Source of the DNA: Bradyrhizobium diazoefficiens
GTDB taxonomy: Bacteria > Pseudomonadota > Alphaproteobacteria > Rhizobiales > Xanthobacteraceae
Assembly (NCBI RefSeq): GCF_016612535.1
Contig: NZ_JAENXS010000002.1
Span: forward strand, 2,790,001 to 2,854,000
Direction: 5' to 3'
DNA length: 64,000 nucleotides
Each line of letters opens with the position of its first letter. Within the stretch, counting starts at the first letter, position 1. Below are positions 25,045-61,691 of this stretch, one piece after another. The notes below the pieces were generated by a model. It searched no databases, was not told where the DNA came from, and saw only the letters and a program-made list of their open reading frames with translations. Both the position numbers and the translations under genes were made by a program.

Positions 25045-26250
25045 TTACGGCCCGGCGCCGGACTGAAACGCAAACAGCTCGATCGGCTCGCTGAAACCGC
25101 GCACGGCATGCTGGCCGACCCGTTCGAGCTCGAACTCCCGATCTACCAACTCCGCGAAGTCACGCGACAGCAGCACCGGTTTTCCGAGCTGCTTGGTCAG
25201 CGCTTCGAGGCGCGAGGCCATGTTGACGGCAGGACCGATCACGGTGAAATCGAGCCGGCTGGTCGAGCCGATATTGCCGTACATGACGTCGCCGACATGG
25301 ACGCCGATGCCGTAATTCAGCGGCGCACGCCCGGTCGTGCTGTTCCGCTCGTTCAGAGCGACCATGGCTCCCCTCGCCTCGGTCACCGCACGCAATAGAT
25401 TGGCGCAGGCGTTGGGTTCATGAAGCGGGAAGATGGCGAGCAAGCCGTCGCCGATGAATTTCAGGATCTCGCCGCCATGCCGCGTGATCGGGTCCGACAT
25501 CGCGTCGAAATAGTCGTTGAGGAGATCGATGACGTCGTCGCGTGGCCAATTGTCGGAGATTTTCGTGAAATCCCTGAGATCGCAGATCATGATCGCGGCG
25601 CGCACCGTGGTGCCGGTGCCGCGCCGCGTGGCGCCGGCGAGAATCAGCTCGCCGGCATGGGCGCCGACATAGGTCTCGAGCAGTGTCCGCGCCAGGCGGT
25701 TCTTGACGCGGATCTCGCTGACCAGCGCCAGCACCGGCAACAGTTTCTTCAGCGCGGCGATATGCGCATCATCGAAGCCGCCACGGCGGTCGGTCGCGAA
25801 AGTGACGAGATGCTGCTTGCCGAGGGTGTGGTAGAGCGGCCAGGCCACATAGTCGGTCAGGCCCGTCGCCCGCATCTCGTCATAGAGCCTGTGCTTGCGG
25901 CCGAGCGCCGGATCGCGTTCGAGATTCTCGCGGACTTCAGTTGCGCCGGTCTGGATCTCGTTGGCGGAACTGCCGATATATTCCGGCCGCTCCCTGACAT
26001 CGAAGTCGACCCGCGAGATGTCGGCCTCGCGCATGCCGTCGGACCACATGAAACGGGCGCCCAGCCATTGCGGGTGTTGGATCAGGATATGAAGCGTCGA
26101 CCGCTTGAGCGGGATGCCGGCCTGCTGAAGCCGAACACACATCTCCGCAAAGATGTTGTCGATGAAACGCTGGTCGCGCGTGCCGTTGGTCAGCCAGTCG
26201 ACGACGGCGTCGGCTTGCGTAGCAGTGGGGATCTTGTCTGACGCGTTCAT
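25045..26250 (-). CDS. Class III adenylate/guanylate cyclase with N-terminal sensory region
   Basis: A 401-residue protein, starting MNASDKIPTATQADAVVDWL. The first ~190 residues are a soluble sensory region of unknown ligand that is common upstream of rhizobial cyclase domains (HPQWLGARFMW, YVAWPLYHTLG). The C-terminal cyclase domain is complete: metal Asp in MICDLRDFT and FIGDGLLAIF, and the transition-state Asn and Arg in GPAVNMASRLE. Product cAMP is likely but cannot be distinguished from cGMP with certainty. ATG 26250 has AGGA just upstream; a start at 26277 (MQTAAEGQDM) is an alternative. Confidence 0.87.
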   Translation of the reverse strand: MNASDKIPTATQADAVVDWLTNGTRDQRFIDNIFAEMCVRLQQAGIPLKRSTLHILIQHPQWLGARFMWSDGMREADISRVDFDVRERPEYIGSSANEIQTGATEVRENLERDPALGRKHRLYDEMRATGLTDYVAWPLYHTLGKQHLVTFATDRRGGFDDAHIAALKKLLPVLALVSEIRVKNRLARTLLETYVGAHAGELILAGATRRGTGTTVRAAIMICDLRDFTKISDNWPRDDVIDLLNDYFDAMSDPITRHGGEILKFIGDGLLAIFPLHEPNACANLLRAVTEARGAMVALNERNSTTGRAPLNYGIGVHVGDVMYGNIGSTSRLDFTVIGPAVNMASRLEALTKQLGKPVLLSRDFAELVDREFELERVGQHAVRGFSEPIELFAFQSGAGP

Positions 26251-26365
26251 ATCCTGGCCTTCGGCAGCGGTCTGCATCACCGGACATATCGTGTTCCGGC
26301 GCGGCCGCGTCAACCTAGCCGGTTGCACGGATTGTGCGCATCGTCCCGCCGTGCAGGATGACCGC

Positions 26366-30130: not shown

Positions 30131-32227
30131 CTATTTCGACGTCAGCGCCGCCACCGGCTGCCAGGCGGCATCGGGCGCGACTGCAGCGAGCTGCCGGCAG
30201 CGGTCGCGCATCAGCTCGGCCGGGCGGTCATGGCCGCGGTGCTTCAACACGGCTTCGAAATCGGCGAGTGCCGCGGCAAACCGGCGTGCGCGATAGTTGG
30301 CGAGGCCGCGCGCGTAGTCCGCGATCCAGCCGATCGCCTCACCGTCAATAGCGCCTTCGTTCGCAACCCCAATCAGCTCATGAACGGAGAGCCCCTCCTC
30401 CCGACCGTAAACCGCGATACTGTCGATCTCGCGGGTGACCACGGCCCCGCGCGCCAGACGTTCGGTCGTCTCGCCGATCAGGATTTGCGTTCCATAGGAT
30501 TTGTTGGCGCCTTCGAGGCGGCTGGCAACGTTCACGGCATCACCGATCACCGTGTAGTTCAGCCGCAGCTCCGAACCGATATTGCCGACCAGCATGCGGC
30601 CGGAATTGATGCCGATCCGGATCTGGAGCGGCTGGCCGAGATCGTCGGCGAGGCCCGACTGTTCGATTGCCCTGCGGCAGGCAACCGCCGCGCGGCAGCA
30701 TCGCGCGGCGTGATCATCCTGCGGCTGCGGCGCGCCCCAGAACGCCATCACGGCGTCGCCGATGAACTTGTCGATGGTCCCGCCATTGGCGACGATGATC
30801 TCCGACGTGACATCGAGATAACGCGACAGCAGCGGCACGACCCGATCGCCGAGACGCTCGGAGAGCCCCGTGAAGCCGGCGATGTCGATGAACATCACGC
30901 TGAGCTCCTGGATGCTGCCGCCGGGCCTTGCCTCGACGCCCTGGCGCAGAAGTGCGCGGACGAGATCGGCCGGGATGAACTTGCGGAAGGCGGAGAGTCC
31001 GGACGCCATCTCGGCAATGGCGCCCGACAGGCTCGCGATCTCCTTGAGCCGCGACGGATGACGGCGGACCTGCTCCAGTGCGAAAGCTTCGACATGGCGA
31101 AGCTCGCCGACGACGCGCGACAGCGGCGCGGCAATGACCGAACGCGCCAGCATCGCCGACGCGAGCGCCGCGAGTACCGCGCCAACGGCAAGGCCGAGGA
31201 TCAGGTGCCGCAGCGTGGTTTCGACCGGACCGAGAAATTCGGCCTCCGGGATCACCGTTGCCAGCGACCAGCCGGGAAACGGCAATGGCGTAAGCGCGAC
31301 TTCATAGGCCGCGCCCTGCGAGGTGAGCCGGCTTCGCCAAGCCTCCTTGCGGCCGGCCTCCCCTGCTTTCACGCGCGCGGTCTGCGCGAGCGGCAGCAGC
31401 GCGGTGTCGCCCTTCGCGGAGTGCAGCTCGTCGGCATCCTTGTCCGGTGCAGCGATAAGCTCGCCGCTGTCATCGATGATGAAAGCCGTTCCGGTGCGCC
31501 CGACCTCGAGCTGCGACAGGAAGCGCGCAAGCCTGGTATATTCGATGCTGACGGCGAGAACGCCCTGCCGCTCCTGATAGACATCGATCGGGCCGGCAAA
31601 GGCGATCGACGGCCGCTGGCCGGTCGGATGCTCCATGACCCTGAACCATTGCGGGTCGTCCGCAGCGAGCCCCGTCTTGAACCATGCCTGGTCGGCGACG
31701 CGGAATCCGGTCGGCTCGAAGCGGCGATTTGCGAATTCGATATCGCCGGGCACGACGTCATATTCATCGACGCGGCGCTGGCCCGGATGATCGGTCAGCG
31801 AGATCTCCATCATCTCCAGTCGCCGGTCGCCGAGCTTGTGCGCGGCGAAGAACGAGCCATCGGGCCAGCCAAAGGCAACCCAGGAGATCGTCGACTGCGA
31901 TTGCAGCTGCGACAAGAACACGAACTCGCGCTTGTCAGCCTCACGGGTACCGAGCACGTTCTGGAGGAACAGCGTACGGATCGCGGTGTGCGCGGCGCGC
32001 GCCTCGTCGACGATCGCCGCGACTTCTTTCCGGACCGCCGCCACGATCTGCTCGTTGATGGTGGAGGCGAGCTGCCGGCTGGTCGCCTCCGCCGTCCGCC
32101 ACCACAGCAGGCTGGAGAGCGCAGCCGTCAGCAGGATCGCGGCCAGGACCAGCGCGGACACGGCGAGGCGGATGCTGACCGTCAGCCTTGCAAGCGCGTG
32201 AAGATGCCGTGCGGGATCAACGTTCAT
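30131..32227 (-). CDS. Membrane-bound class III adenylate/guanylate cyclase with periplasmic sensor domain
   Basis: A 698-residue protein: an N-terminal transmembrane segment (LAVSALVLAAILLTAALSS), a large periplasmic region of about 280 residues with a Cache-like pattern (GDTALLPLAQT, PGWSLATVIPE), a second membrane segment near residue 345 and a HAMP-like linker. The cyclase domain lies at about 440-620 with metal Asp in FIDIAGFTGLSER and KFIGDAVMAFWG and the Asn/Arg motif in GDAVNVASRLE. The C terminus adds a short helical tail with HRGHDRP. It should convert an extracellular signal into cAMP or cGMP. Confidence 0.9.
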   Translation of the reverse strand: MNVDPARHLHALARLTVSIRLAVSALVLAAILLTAALSSLLWWRTAEATSRQLASTINEQIVAAVRKEVAAIVDEARAAHTAIRTLFLQNVLGTREADKREFVFLSQLQSQSTISWVAFGWPDGSFFAAHKLGDRRLEMMEISLTDHPGQRRVDEYDVVPGDIEFANRRFEPTGFRVADQAWFKTGLAADDPQWFRVMEHPTGQRPSIAFAGPIDVYQERQGVLAVSIEYTRLARFLSQLEVGRTGTAFIIDDSGELIAAPDKDADELHSAKGDTALLPLAQTARVKAGEAGRKEAWRSRLTSQGAAYEVALTPLPFPGWSLATVIPEAEFLGPVETTLRHLILGLAVGAVLAALASAMLARSVIAAPLSRVVGELRHVEAFALEQVRRHPSRLKEIASLSGAIAEMASGLSAFRKFIPADLVRALLRQGVEARPGGSIQELSVMFIDIAGFTGLSERLGDRVVPLLSRYLDVTSEIIVANGGTIDKFIGDAVMAFWGAPQPQDDHAARCCRAAVACRRAIEQSGLADDLGQPLQIRIGINSGRMLVGNIGSELRLNYTVIGDAVNVASRLEGANKSYGTQILIGETTERLARGAVVTREIDSIAVYGREEGLSVHELIGVANEGAIDGEAIGWIADYARGLANYRARRFAAALADFEAVLKHRGHDRPAELMRDRCRQLAAVAPDAAWQPVAALTSK

Positions 32228-32548
32228 CGTGGTTTCCGTGCTCCGGCGAAGCCGCGACTGGCCACATCTCCTGCTCTCGCTCTACGTGGCGCGCCTGCGT
32301 TCGTTACCTGTCGCAAGCGCTGTGGGCCGCCGCCAATGCTCTGCCGCTAACGTCTCGATAGCGCCTAGGCATTGGCTTTGCCGCGCAGTTTGCCCGCAAA
32401 TCCCGGCCCAAATGCACGGCCAGTGGGCCCTCACCCAACGATCTCACGGATTCGTGAGCGGCTCGAAAGTAACGGGATCGTGGACGAGACGAAAGAGACG
32501 ATGTGCCCCTCGCTTTGCCAAGCGAAGCCATCCCAAAAGGAGAACTCG
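32228..32548. promoter_or_regulatory. Upstream region of the bufferin-type operon with ECF-sigma-like promoter
   Basis: No gene in this stretch of about 320 bases. GTAAC at 32469-32473 and CGAA at 32490-32493, 16 bases apart, resemble the GTAACC-N16-CGAA pattern I recall for the sigma-F factor that drives bufferin genes in Caulobacter. The end of the -10 is 56 bases before the first ATG. The sixth base of the -35 is G rather than C, so the match is incomplete. Confidence 0.4.
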
Positions 32549-32854
32549 ATGTCTGCCAAACTTGCCATCACCACGCTCGCACTCGCCGGCGCCATGTCGA
32601 CCGCCCTCGCGACTCTGGCCACGGCCGCCCCGCTGACCAAGGCCGAGGCCGATGCCGCCATCGCCGCCAAGAAGGAAAAGTGCTTCGGCGTCGCGCTGAA
32701 GGGCCAGAACGACTGCGCGGCCGGGCCCGGCACGACCTGCCAGGGCACCTCGACCACCGACTTCCAGGGCAATGCCTGGAAATTCGTGCAGGGCGGCACC
32801 TGCACCAGCATCGACCTGCCGAACGGCAAGAAGGGCTCGCTGAAGCCGGTCTGA
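32549..32854 (+). CDS. bufA: Bufferin-type RiPP precursor, DUF2282 family
   Basis: A 101-residue exported peptide. [20 protein letters not shown] begins a signal peptide cleaved near ATAAPLT. The mature part shows the DUF2282 pattern with four conserved cysteines at residues 45, 56, 64 and 85 ([22 protein letters not shown]). ATG 32549 follows AAAAGGAGAA. In characterised relatives the MNIO enzyme encoded next turns cysteines into thiooxazole-type groups and the secreted peptide binds copper ('bufferins'). That function here is inferred from the operon; the four Cys and order are directly seen. A 6-bp hairpin at 32856-32870 just after the stop may favour precursor-rich expression. Confidence 0.9.
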
Positions 32855-32855
32855 G

Positions 32856-32870
32856 GTTCCGAACCGGAAC
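32856..32870 (+). terminator. Small hairpin between bufA and bufB (attenuator candidate)
   Basis: GTTCCG-AAC-CGGAAC forms a 6-bp stem with a 3-base loop two bases after the bufA stop. It lies between the precursor and its modifying enzyme, where partial termination or mRNA protection would raise precursor level. No T-tract, so weak. Confidence 0.4.
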
Positions 32871-32899
32871 ATCGCCCAACGGGAAAGCGGGGGAGCAAC

Positions 32900-33817
32900 A
32901 TGAACACAGCGATCGGGCCTGTCCCGTCCACGCCCACGCCCCTCCGCTTTCCGACTCCGCTCGGCGGCGTCGCCGGCACCAGCTTCAAGCACGAGCACCT
33001 CGCGGCGATCCTCGCCGATGGCGCGCAACGCGGCTTCTTCGAGGTCCATGCCGAGAATTACATGGGCGCGGGCGGTCCGCCGCATCGCGCGCTGGAAGCC
33101 ATCCGCCGTGATCATCCGCTCTCGCTGCATGGCGTCTGCATGTCGATCGGCGGACCGCAGCCGCTCGACAAGGCGCATCTGGCACGCTTCCGGAGCCTGG
33201 TGGCGCGCTATCAGCCGGCCATGGTGTCCGAGCATCTCGCCTGGTCGACCCATGAGACCAGCTTCTTCAACGATCTGTTGCCGCTGCCCTACACCGAGGC
33301 AACGCTGCGTCACGTCTGCGATCACATCGACCAGATGCAGGAGGCGATCCGGCGTCCGATCCTTCTGGAAAACCCGTCGGCCTATCTCGCCTTCACCGAG
33401 ACGACGATGAGCGAGACCGATTTCATCCGCAGCGTCGCCGCGCGCACCGGATGCGGCCTGCTGCTCGATATCAACAATGTGTTCGTGTCCGCGACCAATC
33501 ATGGATTTTCGGCGCTCGACTATCTCGCCGATTTTCCGCTGTCGCGCGTCGGCGAGATTCATCTTGCCGGGCACGACGAGCAGGCGGACGACGACGGCGA
33601 TCCGCTCTTGATCGACAGCCATGACGGCCCGGTCGCGGACGCCGTGTGGAAGCTCTACGAGATCGTCATCGAACGCTGCGGCAACGTGCCGACGCTGATC
33701 GAATGGGACTCCAAAATTCCGGATTGGCCGGTCCTGCAGGCGGAAGCCGCCGCTGCACAGGCGGTCCTCGATCGCTGCGGCATCGCTGAGCCTGCGGAGG
33801 ACCGTCATGCCGCCTGA
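32900..33817 (+). CDS. bufB: MNIO (DUF692) multinuclear iron oxidative enzyme of the bufferin operon
   Basis: A 305-residue TIM-barrel DUF692 enzyme. Metal-ligand motifs typical of the family are present in order: GFFEVHAENYMG (about 46-57), SLHGVCMS, SEHLAWS, LLENPSAYLAF, LLLDINNVFVSATNHG, EIHLAGHDE and DSHDGPV. Such enzymes use two or three iron ions and oxygen to rearrange cysteine in a precursor peptide, here bufA. ATG 32900 has GGGGGAG upstream. The gene overlaps bufC by 11 bases, so these two are translated together. A different MNIO substrate class is unlikely given the DUF2282 neighbour. Confidence 0.93.
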   Translation: MNTAIGPVPSTPTPLRFPTPLGGVAGTSFKHEHLAAILADGAQRGFFEVHAENYMGAGGPPHRALEAIRRDHPLSLHGVCMSIGGPQPLDKAHLARFRSLVARYQPAMVSEHLAWSTHETSFFNDLLPLPYTEATLRHVCDHIDQMQEAIRRPILLENPSAYLAFTETTMSETDFIRSVAARTGCGLLLDINNVFVSATNHGFSALDYLADFPLSRVGEIHLAGHDEQADDDGDPLLIDSHDGPVADAVWKLYEIVIERCGNVPTLIEWDSKIPDWPVLQAEAAAAQAVLDRCGIAEPAEDRHAA

Positions 33818-34583
33818 GCCGGTCTGCTTTGCCGCGGCTTTTACGCCGGCGCTGCTGGATCCCTTGCGCGCCGCGCCGCCGGTCGTGACCGGCCCGAACG
33901 GCAGGACGGCGGGAAAGCGCTACGACGTCTATCGCAACAACGTCACGGTGAGTCTGATCGAGGCGCTCGCCGCAATCTATCCGGCGGTGCAGCGCATCAC
34001 CGGCCCCGACTTCTTCCGCGCCATGGCGCGCTTCCATGTTCGCGAGAGCCCGCCGACTTCGCCGCTGCTGTTCGAATATGGCTACGGCTTTCCGAACTTC
34101 ATTGCACGGTACGAGCACGCCCAGACGATGCCGTGGCTGGCCGATGTCGCCCGCATCGAGCGGGCCTGGCTCGACGCCTACCACGCGCGCGATGCAGAGC
34201 CTCTGGCGGCGGCGCAGCTCGCAGCGGTCACGCCGGAGCGCCTGGCCGATCTCGTTCTCAAGCCGCACCCGGCTGCGCAAATCGTGCGCTCGGAATTTTC
34301 CGCGGTGACGATCTTTGCCGCCAACCGCGATGGCGCACCCACAAGCCGCATCGACGCCTCGAGGCCGGAAGACGCGCTGATCACGCGGCCCGAATTCGAT
34401 GTCATCGTGCGGCACCTACCTCCCGGCGGCGCGGTCTTCGCGATCTGCCTGATGGAGGGGCGCTCGCTCGGCGAGGCCGCTTCATCGGCGCTGGACGCAT
34501 CAACCGACTTCGACATCGCCGCCAACATTGCCGGCCTGATCGAGGCCGGCGCATTCACCTCAATTGCCTTCGGAGACGCATAA
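33807..34583 (+). CDS. bufC: DUF2063-family partner protein of the bufferin operon
   Basis: A 258-residue member of the DUF2063 family. It has RYDVYRNNVTVSLIEALA near the start, ITGPDFFRAMARFHV, and WLADVARIERAWLDAYHA in the middle. In bufferin systems this protein binds both the precursor and the MNIO enzyme and presents the peptide to it. It overlaps bufB by 11 bases, and its TAA shares a base with the ATG of bufD (TAATG). No signal peptide; it acts in the cytoplasm. Confidence 0.88.
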   Translation: MPPEPVCFAAAFTPALLDPLRAAPPVVTGPNGRTAGKRYDVYRNNVTVSLIEALAAIYPAVQRITGPDFFRAMARFHVRESPPTSPLLFEYGYGFPNFIARYEHAQTMPWLADVARIERAWLDAYHARDAEPLAAAQLAAVTPERLADLVLKPHPAAQIVRSEFSAVTIFAANRDGAPTSRIDASRPEDALITRPEFDVIVRHLPPGGAVFAICLMEGRSLGEAASSALDASTDFDIAANIAGLIEAGAFTSIAFGDA

Positions 34584-35092
34584 TGATCGCGGACCAACGC
34601 ATGCCGGCCAGCAGCAGCCTCCCGTCACTCGGGCTGCTCGTCGACAAGGCCAACCATCTGGTGCAGACCATCGCCTTGCCGTCGGTCGTTCAGCTGGTGC
34701 TGCGCATCGCGCTGGCCGTGCCGTTCTGGCGCTCCGGCATGCTCAAATGGGCCGGCTTCCTCAGGCTCAACGACACCGCGGTGACGCTGTTCAGCGACGA
34801 GTTCATGCTGCATCTGCCGGGTGGGCCCTATCATTATCCGGTGCCGGCAGCGATGGCCTTCCTGTCGGGGTGCGGCGAGATCACATTCCCGATCCTCCTC
34901 GTGCTCGGCCTCGGCACGCGGTTTGCCGGGCTCGGACTGCTGTTCATGACGCTGATCGTCGAACTCACGGTGCCCGACGGCTGGCCGATCCATATCACCT
35001 GGGCGGCAATGGCGCTTGCCATCATGGCTTACGGGCCGGGGCGCGTCTCGCTTGATTATTTGATCGGACGGGTGCTCTCATCCGAGCATTAG
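34583..35092 (+). CDS. bufD: DoxX-family membrane protein of the bufferin operon
   Basis: A 169-residue protein with four membrane helices. The DoxX pattern is visible: LVLRIALAVPFWRSGMLKW, then FLSGCGEITFPILLVLGLG and TLIVELTVPDGWPIHI. ATG 34583 overlaps the bufC stop by one base. DoxX-type genes are the usual last gene of bufferin operons; the role is not firmly known, with electron transfer or export proposed. No further copper gene follows: the next 240 bases hold repeats. Confidence 0.87.
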   Translation: MIADQRMPASSSLPSLGLLVDKANHLVQTIALPSVVQLVLRIALAVPFWRSGMLKWAGFLRLNDTAVTLFSDEFMLHLPGGPYHYPVPAAMAFLSGCGEITFPILLVLGLGTRFAGLGLLFMTLIVELTVPDGWPIHITWAAMALAIMAYGPGRVSLDYLIGRVLSSEH

Positions 35093-57299: not shown

Positions 57300-58094
57300 T
57301 TAGCCATCCGACGGCAGGCCCTGCGCGATGCCGCGAAAGCGTAGCGGCGCCAGCGACGATGCTCGCTGCCACCAATCAGCGACGCGATCATCGAGCGCAG
57401 TCACTCCGCGGCCCTGGCCGGGGAATATCCGGATCTGCTGCACCGCTTCGGCCTCGAATCCCTTGCCCTTGCGCGTGATCCTGAGGACGGCACCTTCGCG
57501 ATCCCGCTGCGTCAGCGGCACCAGGAGGCGGCCGCGCGGGCGGAGCGACTGAAGCCACATCGGATGCGGATGAGAGAAGCCGGCGTGCACGATGATGACA
57601 TCGGCCGGGCCACCGACCTCCGCGCATCCGTCGCCGTTGATGACCTCGACATTCCGATAGGCGCGAAGATAGGCCGCGGCGCGCGCCGCGAGCCGTTCGT
57701 CGCATTCGATGGCGTGCACCCGACCCTTCGGGCCGACGATCTCTGACAGGATCGCCGAGAAATAGCCGAGCCCGCAACCGATCTGGACCACGCGGTCCTT
57801 CTCCTCGACGTCGAGCACATCGATGAAATGCGCCCACAGGCTCGGCAGTCCAGTGTCGAGCTTGCGGCGTGCGTCGATGGCGACCAGCACATCGTCGTAG
57901 AGATGCACCGGGTCGGCGTCGGGTGTCAGCCGGTAGCTGCGCGCCGCCTCGCTCTTGATCCGCCAGGGCCCTTTCGCCAGAAAACCTTCGCGCGGAACCG
58001 CCGCCAGGGCTGTGAGCAGGCGCTGCGAGGCAATCCGTTCGCGCTTGGCAATCAGCTCGACGTAGCGCGCACGCGCGCCGGACAGATCGCTCAT
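57300..58094 (-). CDS. Protein-L-isoaspartate O-methyltransferase-like protein
   Basis: A 264-residue PCMT-family methyltransferase. SQRLLTALAAVPREGFLAKG at the N terminus, motif I VVQIGCGLGYFSAILSEI, GRVHAIECDERL and LRPRGRLLVPL match the family. True PCMT repairs isoaspartyl residues; the variant NGDGCAEVGGPADVI lacks part of the canonical substrate motif, so the substrate may differ. Its ATG overlaps the stop of the large cyclase gene by four bases, so the two are co-translated. The 95-base gap to the DUF6492 gene holds no terminator I can identify. Confidence 0.82.
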   Translation of the reverse strand: MSDLSGARARYVELIAKRERIASQRLLTALAAVPREGFLAKGPWRIKSEAARSYRLTPDADPVHLYDDVLVAIDARRKLDTGLPSLWAHFIDVLDVEEKDRVVQIGCGLGYFSAILSEIVGPKGRVHAIECDERLAARAAAYLRAYRNVEVINGDGCAEVGGPADVIIVHAGFSHPHPMWLQSLRPRGRLLVPLTQRDREGAVLRITRKGKGFEAEAVQQIRIFPGQGRGVTALDDRVADWWQRASSLAPLRFRGIAQGLPSDG

Positions 58095-61000
58095 TTCGCC
58101 GGATCGCCCTGCAGACGAACGGGTGCGTCGCCACCGAGTTCGCGCACCAGCTGCATGGCTTGCTTCAGGTCCGGCGTCAGGAAACCCTCGTTGAATTTGC
58201 CAACGATCGGCAGGAGCAGAAGGCTTGCATGTTCGCGCTTGCCGGCTTCATGCGAGAGCCGCGCGAGGCTGACGGCGGTTCTGAGCTCCCAGGACAGCGC
58301 GCCCTGCTTGCGCGCGGTCTCGAGCGACAGATCGAACAGATCCTCCGCCTCCTGCAACGAGGCTGGATTGCCGTCCGACAACGTGATCTCGCCTTGCAGG
58401 CGATAGACCTCGGCGAGATAGGAGTGATCGCCGGTCCGTCTTGCGGTCGCAAGCGCGCCGTCCAGCGCGCGCAAGGCGGCATCGCGCATACCGACCTTGG
58501 CATAGGCCTCCGCGAGCAGGCAGCGGAACCAGCAGCCAGCGAGCCAGGAATCCATCGCCTCGTATTCGTCGAGGCCGAACCGCATCTGGCTGATGCCTTC
58601 GTCGGCCTCGCCGAGCTGGGCCAGCGCCCAGCCACGCAGGATCGCGGCCTGCTGCTTCCAGTGCAGGAAATTGTGCTCGGTGGCGATGATCATGGCGCGG
58701 TTGGCGTGATCGCGCGTACCCTCGATATCGCGCAAATGCTGGCAGAGATAGGCGCCGAACACCAGTGCGAAGGCGAGCGAGAAAGGATGACGGATCTTCT
58801 CCGCCAGCAGGATCGCCTGCTCGCTGTGCTGGCGCGCGGCGTCGGGCTGGCCGAGGAACCACAGGAGATAGCCGAGATAGGACAGCGAGACGACACCGGG
58901 ATCGGTGCCGTGACGCTCCATCAGGTCGGAGTGCAGGTCCGGGCTGTAGAGATTGATGCAGCGGTGCAGATGATGCTGCGCGGCGGCGAAGCGCCCGCGA
59001 TAGAGCATGGTCATCGCGATCGAGCGGTGCGCCTCGATCAGATAGCCGGTCTGCTGCGCCGGCTGCGTCCCCTCATTCAGCCGCTCGCGCTTGGCGAATT
59101 TCAGCAACTCGACGCTGAGGTCGTGTGCGCGGGTGAGATCGGCGCGGATGAAATGGCACACCCAGAGCCCGCGTGTGGCGGCAAAGGCCTTTTCGTCGTC
59201 GTCGAGCTGCTGGCCGAGCTCGAGCGCACGGATGTAGTTCTCCTCGACCTCCTGCACCGCGTAGCCCTTGGCGGCGATCAGCGCAATGCCGAGCGCAATT
59301 CGCAGCTCGAGCTCCATTTCGTCGGCGCCCTGCATGCGCGCATTGGCCTGCACGACGCTCAAGCCGCGGCGCAGATGACCGATCGCCTCGAGATTGGCGC
59401 CGCTCTTGGCCGCCTGCTTGCCGGCCTTGAGCCAGAAGCTCGCCGCGCCCTCGCTCTGGCCGGACTCGGTCAGATGGTGGGCGAGCAGCTCCGGCTCGCG
59501 CTCGGTCTTCTCCGGATACATCTCGGCCAGCACCTGGGCGATGCTGGCGTGCAGCTTGCGCCGCTCGCTGTGCAACAGGCTCGCATGAGCCGCGTTCTGG
59601 ATCATCACGTGCTTGAAGGAGTAGAGCGCATCGGGCGGATGACCACGGCGCATAATCAGCCCGGCCTCCTCGAGATGCGTGAGCGCCGCCTCGATCTGCT
59701 CCGCCGGCGTGTTGGCGACCGCTTGCAGCGTCTCGTAGGAGAACTCGCGGCCGATCGTGGCGCCGATCTGGGCGATCCGCTTGAACGGCCCCATCCGGTC
59801 CAGACGCGCCATCAGCGAGTCCGTCAACGTCGCCGGGATCGCCAGCTGCCGCCACGGGCCCGACAGCACGTAGCGCCCGTGCCGTTCGGTCAGGAGGTTG
59901 GATTCGAGAACCGTCTTGGTCAGCTCTTCCAGGAACAGCGGCACGCCGTCGGTCTTGACGATGATCTCCTCGACGATCTCCTTGGGAAGCTCACGCCCCG
60001 CGACGCGCTCGACCAGCGTCGCGCGCAACGGCCGGCTGAGCCGGTTCAGCACCAGCGTCGTGATGTGCGAATGCGCGTTCCAGCTCGGCTGGAATTCGGA
60101 GCGCGCGGTGATGATGGCCAGGATCGGCCGGTTCTGCGCCCGGTCGACCAGGAGGTCGATCACCTCGCGGGAGGTTGGGTCGATCCAGTGCAGATCCTCG
60201 AAAGCCATCACCAGCGGCATCTCGTGCGCGAGGCCCAGGAGGTGGTTGACCAGCGCCGCGACGGTCGCGTCCTTCTGCTGCTGCGGCGACAAATCGAGCG
60301 GTGGATAGCGCTCGCAGGTCGGGATCGACAGCAGCGCGGCAAACAGCGGTGCGACCTGCTCGATGTCGCCATGGGCGGTGGCAATCGCATTCTCCAGGCT
60401 CGCCAGCGACAGCGCGGACGCATCCTCGCGATCGAGGCCGAGGGAGAATTTGAGCTGCTCGACGAACGGATAGAAAGCGGTGGAGGTGTAATAAGGCGAG
60501 CACTGGAACGAGACCTGTCCGTGGCGGTCGCCTGCGATCCGCTCAAAGATCTCCTGGATGATGCGCGACTTACCGATGCCGGGCTCGCCGAACTTGACGA
60601 CGACTTGGCCGTCGCCCTCCTTGACCTGCTGCCAGCGGCCCATCAGCAGCGCGATTTCCTCCTCGCGGTTGACGAGCGGGGTCAGCCGCGTGCCCATGGC
60701 GGCCGCAAAGCGGGTCTCCACCCGCGTGGCGCGCACGACGTGCCAGGCCTGGGTCTTCTCCGAGATCCCCTTCAGCGCATGAGCGCCGAGATTGCGGTAA
60801 TCGAACTTCCCCTTCAGCAATGACTGCGTCGAAGAGGAGATCACGACGCCGTTGGGCGGCGCCAGCGCCTGTAGGCGCGCGGCCAGATTGACGGTCTCGC
60901 CGACCGCGGAATCGCGCTCTTCGGTGCCCTGGCCGACGAGGTCGCCGACCACGACAAGGCCGGTCGCGATGCCGATGCGGACGGCCGGCGCGTGACTGAG

Positions 61001-61555
61001 CGCGCCGCGCGGCTCGATCGCGCGCGCGGTCGACAGCACCCGCACGATCTCGAGCCCGGCGCGTACCGAACGCTCGGCGTCGTCCTCATGCGCGGTCGGG
61101 TAGCCGAAATAGACCAGAATGCCGTCTCCGACGAAGCGGGCGGCAAAGCCTTCGTAATGCTTGACCACGCGCACACAGGTCTCGCGGAAGCTCGCGATCA
61201 TGTCGCGAACGTCTTCCGGATCGAATTGGGCCGAGAGCGCGGTGGAATCCACCATGTCGCAGAACATGGTGGTGAGCTGGCGTCGCTCGGCGCCGACCTC
61301 GGCGCGGGCCTGCGGACGCACGGGCGCGATCGGCGTCTCCGCCGTCTCGGCCTGGAACAGCGCGGCTGTCGCCCGCCGTAGCCGCTTGCGATCGCCCAGC
61401 GGAAGTCCGAGCTCGGCAAGGTCAGCCTCGGTCAGATCCCCTATGACGTCGAGATCGAGGCGGTGCTGCGCGAACAGATCGGTGTAATGCCCGAGACCGA
61501 CCCCCTCGAGCCAGCGCTTCAACCCGAGTTCCGTCTCCGGTTCTTTCTCCAGCAT
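58091..61555 (-). CDS. SAM domain - class III cyclase - AAA ATPase - TPR signalling protein
   Basis: A 1154-residue protein. A SAM domain (LKRWLEGVGLGHYTDLFAQH) at residues ~10-65 precedes a complete cyclase domain at ~85-265 (metal Asp in FCDMVDSTALS and FVGDGILVYFG, Asn/Arg in TVNLAARLQAL). From ~295 follows an AAA-type ATPase with P-loop FGEPGIGKSRIIQEIF and a predicted-ATPase region with VMAFEDLHWIDPTSREV. The C-terminal ~450 residues are TPR-like helices (LRGWALAQLGEADEG). ATG 61555 (MLEKEPETELG) fits; an 18-residue-longer start is unlikely. The output is probably cAMP; the trigger is unknown. Confidence 0.88.
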   Translation of the reverse strand: MLEKEPETELGLKRWLEGVGLGHYTDLFAQHRLDLDVIGDLTEADLAELGLPLGDRKRLRRATAALFQAETAETPIAPVRPQARAEVGAERRQLTTMFCDMVDSTALSAQFDPEDVRDMIASFRETCVRVVKHYEGFAARFVGDGILVYFGYPTAHEDDAERSVRAGLEIVRVLSTARAIEPRGALSHAPAVRIGIATGLVVVGDLVGQGTEERDSAVGETVNLAARLQALAPPNGVVISSSTQSLLKGKFDYRNLGAHALKGISEKTQAWHVVRATRVETRFAAAMGTRLTPLVNREEEIALLMGRWQQVKEGDGQVVVKFGEPGIGKSRIIQEIFERIAGDRHGQVSFQCSPYYTSTAFYPFVEQLKFSLGLDREDASALSLASLENAIATAHGDIEQVAPLFAALLSIPTCERYPPLDLSPQQQKDATVAALVNHLLGLAHEMPLVMAFEDLHWIDPTSREVIDLLVDRAQNRPILAIITARSEFQPSWNAHSHITTLVLNRLSRPLRATLVERVAGRELPKEIVEEIIVKTDGVPLFLEELTKTVLESNLLTERHGRYVLSGPWRQLAIPATLTDSLMARLDRMGPFKRIAQIGATIGREFSYETLQAVANTPAEQIEAALTHLEEAGLIMRRGHPPDALYSFKHVMIQNAAHASLLHSERRKLHASIAQVLAEMYPEKTEREPELLAHHLTESGQSEGAASFWLKAGKQAAKSGANLEAIGHLRRGLSVVQANARMQGADEMELELRIALGIALIAAKGYAVQEVEENYIRALELGQQLDDDEKAFAATRGLWVCHFIRADLTRAHDLSVELLKFAKRERLNEGTQPAQQTGYLIEAHRSIAMTMLYRGRFAAAQHHLHRCINLYSPDLHSDLMERHGTDPGVVSLSYLGYLLWFLGQPDAARQHSEQAILLAEKIRHPFSLAFALVFGAYLCQHLRDIEGTRDHANRAMIIATEHNFLHWKQQAAILRGWALAQLGEADEGISQMRFGLDEYEAMDSWLAGCWFRCLLAEAYAKVGMRDAALRALDGALATARRTGDHSYLAEVYRLQGEITLSDGNPASLQEAEDLFDLSLETARKQGALSWELRTAVSLARLSHEAGKREHASLLLLPIVGKFNEGFLTPDLKQAMQLVRELGGDAPVRLQGDPAK

Positions 61556-61691
61556 GGTGATCCCCGCCCGACAATCCCTCCGCCGAAGGGCTAAAGGTCC
61601 CTCAACCACAGATTTTGGGGCCCAAACTTCACCTCAGACTGGACGCGTTCCCTAACTCTTGGGAAGAATAGCCCAATCAGATCAAAAGGGA

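Follow-up and report, generated by a model that had tools for sequence, protein, structure and literature searches.

The bufferin operon

The stretch of DNA analysed here (the window) comprises 64,000 nucleotides (nt) of the 8.0-Mb genome of Bradyrhizobium diazoefficiens (C2:2790001-2854000). It contains a bufferin operon, four co-directional genes at 32549-35092 in the order DUF2282 precursor, MNIO, DUF2063 partner and DoxX, and this operon shares its upstream region with the divergently oriented gene of a class III adenylate/guanylate cyclase. The precursor gene (32549-32854, plus strand, as are the three genes that follow) encodes a DUF2282 protein of the Buf1 type (PF10048, 78.5 bits, cut-off 22.4) of 101 amino acids with cysteines at positions 45, 56, 64 and 85, whose residues 1 to about 27 look, as judged by eye, like a Sec signal. 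It is followed by the MNIO bufferin maturase BufB (32900-33817; PF05114, 355.6 bits; NCBIfam NF050167, 386.7 bits, cut-off 310), by the MNIO partner, a DUF2063 protein of PME type 1 with a C-terminal RRE-like domain (33807-34583; PF09836, 82.3 bits), and by a DoxX-family membrane protein (34583-35092; PF07681, 56.8 bits). The DUF2282 and MNIO matches are each the only ones in the genome. Among named organisms, Bradyrhizobium cytisi and Bradyrhizobium sp. WSM3983 match best, with 91% identity over the MNIO. These Pfam and NCBIfam matches confirm an original prediction, made from the window alone, that the four families are present and form an operon. Its statement that the genes overlap holds for MNIO and DUF2063 (11 nt) and for DUF2063 and DoxX (1 nt), but the precursor and MNIO genes are 45 nt apart.

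Matches to the precursor, MNIO, partner and DoxX proteins were found together by tblastn in 79 of 80 relatives' loci, and the four-gene arrangement is therefore not due to chance; the exceptions in this survey are a locus that is cut off before the precursor gene (L031) and one in which DoxX is matched best at another place in the locus, on the opposite strand (L080). The four cysteines of the precursor are invariant in all 80 aligned sequences (the window and 79 loci, L031 being omitted as it ends before the precursor gene), and none of them has a fifth. In the MNIO protein, a set of histidine, aspartate, glutamate and asparagine residues does not vary in any of the 81 sequences, including H50, H77, H93, E111, H112, E157, N158, D190, N193, H221, D239, H241 and E268, several of which are probably iron ligands, as in solved MNIO structures. 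A sequence-level search of the PDB with the partner protein gave no match. Its AlphaFold2 model, built from 22 sequences with a predicted local distance difference test score (pLDDT) of 88.3, matched at E values of 0.001 or better only TglI of the TglHI complex (8hci, 8hi7) and NGO1945 (3dee), with E values of 3.5e-6 to 2.5e-5. The NCBIfam model HvfC scored 31.1 on the partner, below its cut-off of 142, and the HvfX model also stayed below its cut-off on the DoxX protein. Together, the BufB match above cut-off, the invariant four-cysteine DUF2282 protein, the partner fold resembling TglI and NGO1945, and DoxX support the bufferin-type reading that had been proposed, and on sequence grounds the operon is an ordinary Buf1-type bufferin operon, that is, one of a known kind.

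A second DUF2282 subfamily occurs in the genus (L117, L118, L120, L123, L127, L133). Its members start with MSNRTL or MSNRML, are 113 to 115 amino acids long, and carry, between about -105 and -110, a GTAACC site without the TCAC-N6-GT element described below.

The promoter of the bufferin operon

The original prediction had the operon begin at position 32469. This position is instead the first base of the -35 box of a promoter of the EcfF/ECF16 type (extracytoplasmic function sigma factor group 16), GTAACG-N15-CGA at 32469-32492 on the plus strand, 80 nt before the precursor ATG. It fits the consensus reported for Bradyrhizobium japonicum EcfF, GTAAC(g,a)-N14-15-(c,t)CG(t,a), for which the start of ecfF was determined by primer extension (PMC3420878), except for an A preceding CGA. 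For footprinting we used the 250 nt upstream of the precursor gene in the window and 79 loci, which span Bradyrhizobium, Rhizobium, Ensifer, Mesorhizobium and others, and the pattern GTAAC-N16..20-CG(A/T). The motif is present in 78 of these 80 upstream regions, and in 77 of them it is located at -67 to -88; it is missing in L042 and L071, and in L065 it is found only at -140. The background, taken from both strands of the same loci with the promoters included, is 169 of 6666 segments of 250 nt, or about 2.5%. Within the window alone, a looser GTAAC pattern occurs about as often as chance would predict (8 sites against 5.9 expected); the case for the promoter rests on conservation between loci.

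Two other approaches were abandoned. A genome-wide count of GTAACR-N14/15-NCGW (182 matches; 645 in a backward control that is not comparable) is uninformative unless limited to upstream regions and was replaced by the footprinting and by the composite pattern described below. A candidate conserved leader hairpin upstream of the ribosome-binding site (in the window, TCGCTT-TGCC-AAGCGA) was dropped, as a consensus fold of 21 sequences keeps three pairs, none of which is changed on both sides.

A palindrome shared by several promoters

Upstream of the -35 box lies a palindrome, CTCACG-N4-CGTGAG (32443-32458), which is conserved between loci and is perfect in the window (CTCACGGATTCGTGAG). TCAC-N6-GTGA occurs in all 31 upstream regions from Bradyrhizobium and Afipia (the window, 29 Bradyrhizobium loci and one Afipia bin), and in 30 of these 31 TCAC-N6-GTG is located 24 to 27 nt from the GTAAC box, the only miss being L042, which has no GTAAC. 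In the other 49 regions, TCAC-N6-GTG at 24 to 26 nt from GTAAC is found in 31. Of the 31 Bradyrhizobium and Afipia regions, 18 (L003-L006, L008, L010, L012-L014, L016-L019, L021, L022, L028, L030, L032) have a further palindrome, GCGCAC-N4..6-GTGCGC, some 31 nt upstream of the TCACG one; in the window it is degraded.

The composite of palindrome and -35 box (TCACG-N4-CGTG-N7..22-GTAAC) has three matches in this genome, before msrA, before ecfF and before the bufferin operon, compared to one for the reversed pattern. There are two further msrA genes: upstream of one (L146) there is GTAAC but no palindrome, and upstream of the other (L148) neither. Over 146 sampled genomes of the genus, the composite has 384 matches and the reversed control 131, with a mean per genome of 3.10 in the 68 DUF2282-positive genomes (control 1.09) and 2.22 in the 78 negative ones (control 0.73). 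Among the matches listed, the composite ends 613 to 627 nt upstream of an NrsF match in the same orientation, which places it before ecfF, in 14 genomes chosen by eye (G000, G002, G008, G014, G015, G021, G022, G026, G043, G125, G127, G132, G134, G138). This location is not universal, as the single site of G009 is elsewhere. Another class of composite sites precedes a gene for a DsbD-like membrane protein followed by one for a thioredoxin-fold protein, in seven loci fetched for that class, six of them assigned by sequence likeness and one (L189) by Pfam. In B. japonicum, the EcfF targets bll1027-bll1026 comprise a gene annotated for cytochrome c biogenesis and a hypothetical one (PMC3420878); by annotation only, they are likely the same pair. 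The distance from the palindrome start to GTAAC varies with the target, examples being 20 nt (DsbD), 24 to 27 nt (msrA, bufferin) and 29 to 31 nt (ecfF). The running text on EcfF promoters in PMC3420878, figures aside, describes no palindrome upstream of the -35 box.

The sigma factor and its anti-sigma factor

The sole match to an NrsF-type anti-sigma factor in the genome is located outside the window, at C2:1660728-1661336. The gene preceding it encodes an extracytoplasmic function sigma factor (PF04542, 48 bits; PF08281, 37.8 bits), ecfF, which has its own upstream GTAAC-N-CGA site. The sigma/anti-sigma pair is thus encoded 1.16 Mb from the bufferin operon. The only cysteines of the NrsF protein, OsrA, are Cys129 and Cys179, both of which were reported to matter in OsrA of B. 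japonicum (PMC3420878). NrsF matches are present in 145 of the 146 sampled genomes and DUF2282 matches in 68, which indicates that the sigma system belongs to the core and the bufferin operon to the accessory genome. Sigma factor or NrsF matches are found within the flanks of many loci outside Bradyrhizobium and Afipia; no such match lies in the flanks of the 30 loci whose titles name Bradyrhizobium or Afipia.

Two ECF16 sigma factors with possible cross-talk, EcfF and EcfS, were described for B. japonicum (PMC3420878), and the GTAAC footprint might belong to EcfS or another ECF16 paralogue, or be constitutive, instead of being recognized by EcfF. We consider this improbable, since only a single NrsF-type anti-sigma match exists in the genome and since the composite of palindrome and GTAAC also precedes ecfF itself.

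The divergent cyclase

The gene divergent to the operon (30131-32227, minus strand) encodes a class III adenylate/guanylate cyclase of 698 amino acids with a dCache sensor domain (PF02743, dCache_1, 62.5 bits; PF00211, 80.5 bits; both over cut-off). A model of the sensor domain, with a mean pLDDT of 58.9, was too poor for a fold search. The window holds three class III cyclase genes on the minus strand, at 25045-26328, 30131-32227 and 58091-61609, the last of which also has SAM, AAA_16 and TPR matches. The cyclase divergent to the operon has an EcfF-type promoter of its own, GTAACG-N15-CGT at 32284-32307 on the minus strand, 80 nt before the cyclase ATG. Of the 27 loci (counting the window) that have a cyclase match of at least 70%, 25 contain such a site. 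It was missed in L029 and in L008, the latter because a partial cyclase match misplaced its upstream region. Between the two promoters lies a long dyad, CCAATGC-N29-GCATTGG (32333-32375), which occurs in two places in the genome compared to one for the backward control, and whose arms are at least 90% conserved in an alignment of the intergenic regions of 26 loci (L008 left out). Four blocks stand out in this alignment: the cyclase promoter, the long dyad, the palindrome and the bufferin promoter. Both this promoter architecture and the linked cyclase go beyond the original prediction.

Among the 146 genomes, a cyclase orthologue of at least 60% identity is present in 60 of the 68 DUF2282-positive and in none of the 78 DUF2282-negative ones (Fisher P 1e-32 for a single genus, not corrected for descent). 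The 60% cut was set after viewing the list, in which there is a gap between 58 and 61%. In 59 genomes the cyclase is adjacent to the bufferin genes, in 55 divergently and in four co-directionally (G025, G053, G074, G126; 61-64% identity), and in one (G071) it is on another contig. Eight DUF2282-positive genomes do not have it (G009, G032, G033, G043, G092, G125, G136, G139). In two DUF2282-positive genomes the cyclase is in two pieces (G046, C1:3659847-3662338; G127, C145:55177-57263). A weaker cyclase match of 54-58% (E 1e-150 or better) occurs in 38 of the 78 DUF2282-negative and in two positive genomes. L226 (163-5606), from a bufferin-negative genome, has a 58%-identical paralogue whose divergent neighbours are DsbD_TM, DoxX and Thioredox_DsbH genes (Pfam), and in L227 and L228 a weaker cyclase match has a similar thioredoxin-like protein near it. 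A GTAAC-N-CGA site precedes DoxX in L226, in a locus where such sites are about as frequent as expected by chance. Among the named loci, a cyclase match of 70% or more is located beside the operon in 26 of the 30 from Bradyrhizobium and Afipia, and a cyclase-like match was found in one of the 50 from elsewhere (L063).

The cyclase may be a passenger that sits with the operon on one chromosomal segment kept or lost as a block, with no functional coupling. We give this explanation slightly less than an even chance. The restriction of the co-occurrence to one genus with shared descent, the single match outside Bradyrhizobium and Afipia, and the eight DUF2282-positive genomes without the gene are all consistent with it. 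However, in the diverged lineage of four genomes adjacency is kept despite the other orientation, the cyclase is preceded by a conserved EcfF-type site of its own, and the L226 paralogue is found beside DsbD_TM and DoxX genes in a genome without bufferin. Only tentatively do we propose that the bufferin operon of Bradyrhizobium and a dedicated Cache-sensor cyclase might form one divergent EcfF module, in which a sigma factor triggered by oxidants or copper would activate a copper-binding modified peptide together with a cyclic-nucleotide signal, and in which a regulator might bind the palindrome shared by ecfF, msrA, the DsbD/thioredoxin pair and the bufferin operon, giving two-input promoters; we would not bet on this proposal as a whole.

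Comparison with known systems

The core of the Buf1 clusters described in PMC12452194 consists of the same four genes as here. Sigma factor and NrsF genes were reported in such clusters, albeit not universally, and further conserved genes at extremely low proportions; a cyclase is named in that paper only in the title of a reference. A DoxX gene is a frequent but not a universal part of Buf1 clusters. A close parallel is CC3254-CC3257 of Caulobacter, where genes of these four families are arranged identically and the precursor gene is likewise preceded by a promoter of the ECF16 type. This operon is controlled by SigF-NrsF (SigF consensus GTAACC-N16-CGAA), with a transcription start mapped by 5'RACE at -61 (PMC3511200); here, the -35 box begins at -80. 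Unlike in Caulobacter, the sigma and anti-sigma factors are encoded in trans in B. diazoefficiens, and a palindrome and a divergent cyclase gene that has an EcfF-type site are present in addition. In Sinorhizobium meliloti, the ECF16 sigma factor RpoE7 of the RpoE7-EcfR7 system activates SMb20527-SMb20530, given as orthologues of CC3254-57 (PMC6180224); the sigma genes are divergent and adjacent there, and the available text mentions no cyclase.

The EcfF-OsrA regulon of B. japonicum (PMC3420878) has in common with the present system the Cys129/Cys179 pair, the GTAAC-N-CG promoter and the members msr and ecfF; for this genome we predict the bufferin operon and the cyclase as further members. 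One EcfF target of B. japonicum (PMC3420878), bsr4431, was considered as a candidate bufferin precursor; both papers in which a text search found the name call it hypothetical. Captophorins, 5-thiooxazole peptides such as fontiphorin, oxazolin and gonophorin, have in common with bufferins an MNIO with a PME1 partner, cysteine-derived heterocycles and copper, but their precursors contain EGKCG repeats instead of a four-cysteine DUF2282 domain. For 5-thiooxazole peptides, UV absorption at about 305 nm is reported (PMC12668002). In the open-licence literature searched, EcfF control of a Bradyrhizobium bufferin operon, the shared palindrome and the link to a cyclase are not described.

Proposed function

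The explanation we favour, with a probability of roughly 0.76, is that this Buf1 bufferin operon encodes a periplasmic copper buffer triggered by oxidants or copper and belongs to the core EcfF regulon. It starts from the gene content, the promoter footprints, the sigma/anti-sigma pair with both of its cysteines and the co-occurrence pattern observed here, and takes cysteine modification, copper binding, inducer and EcfF dependence by analogy from the relatives. Oxidant or metal attack on the membrane anti-sigma factor OsrA would free EcfF, which would then turn on methionine sulfoxide reductase, ecfF itself, the bufferin operon (from the ECF16 promoter at 32469-32492) and the divergent cyclase. 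The DUF2063/RRE partner would bind the DUF2282 precursor, and the MNIO enzyme would oxidise the central Cys56 and Cys64, probably to 5-thiooxazoles as in bufferin 1 of Caulobacter and other characterised relatives (PMC12452194, PMC12668002), while Cys45 and Cys85 may form a disulfide. The product would be exported by Sec and would buffer copper in the periplasm, possibly assisted by DoxX in the inner membrane.

The inducer is the weakest step of this mechanism and is unsettled, because fusions of the RpoE7 system of S. meliloti were not induced by H2O2, CdCl2 or K2CrO4; copper is not named in the passage on these fusions (PMC6180224). Other observations also weigh against the proposed copper buffer under EcfF control. 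The NCBIfam BufA2 model scored only 24.6 on the precursor, below its cut-off of 60; the EcfF target table of B. japonicum (Table 3 in PMC3420878) contains no bufferin-like or cyclase gene by annotation, in a strain for which the presence of the operon is not established; and the second ECF16 sigma factor known from B. japonicum, EcfS, could serve the bufferin promoter instead.

Copper might also not be the main partner of the peptide, which might instead guard envelope thiols or methionines against oxidants (H2O2, hypochlorous acid, singlet oxygen) or bind another soft metal. Such a role would be in keeping with the nature of the EcfF regulon of B. japonicum, an oxidant regulon with methionine sulfoxide reductases (PMC3420878), with the response of a related ECF16 system to hypochlorous acid (PMC8315932), and with the composite promoter before the DsbD-like/thioredoxin pair in the seven loci from other genomes of the genus. 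In addition, no copper gene was seen among the 39 window proteins scanned against Pfam, which are part of the window's open reading frames (5 of the 39 had no Pfam match and may be wrong-frame reading frames); this agrees with the original prediction, in which the lack of a nearby copper exporter had been pointed out. However, characterised bufferins are copper chelators that aid growth during copper stress (PMC12452194), and binding of copper is general among related MNIO products (PMC12668002); we regard a peptide for which copper is secondary as unlikely.

The name bufferin is recent, and the rhizobial literature surveyed settles neither the inducer nor the control of such operons. The promoter anatomy described here suggests EcfF-OsrA acting in trans, with copper and oxidants as candidate inputs. 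Coupling of the cyclase to the operon, if it exists, would link peptides of copper or thiol stress to cyclic-nucleotide signalling, a link that we did not find in the literature searched. And if the palindrome binds a protein, the ECF16 promoters of the genus would receive a second input.

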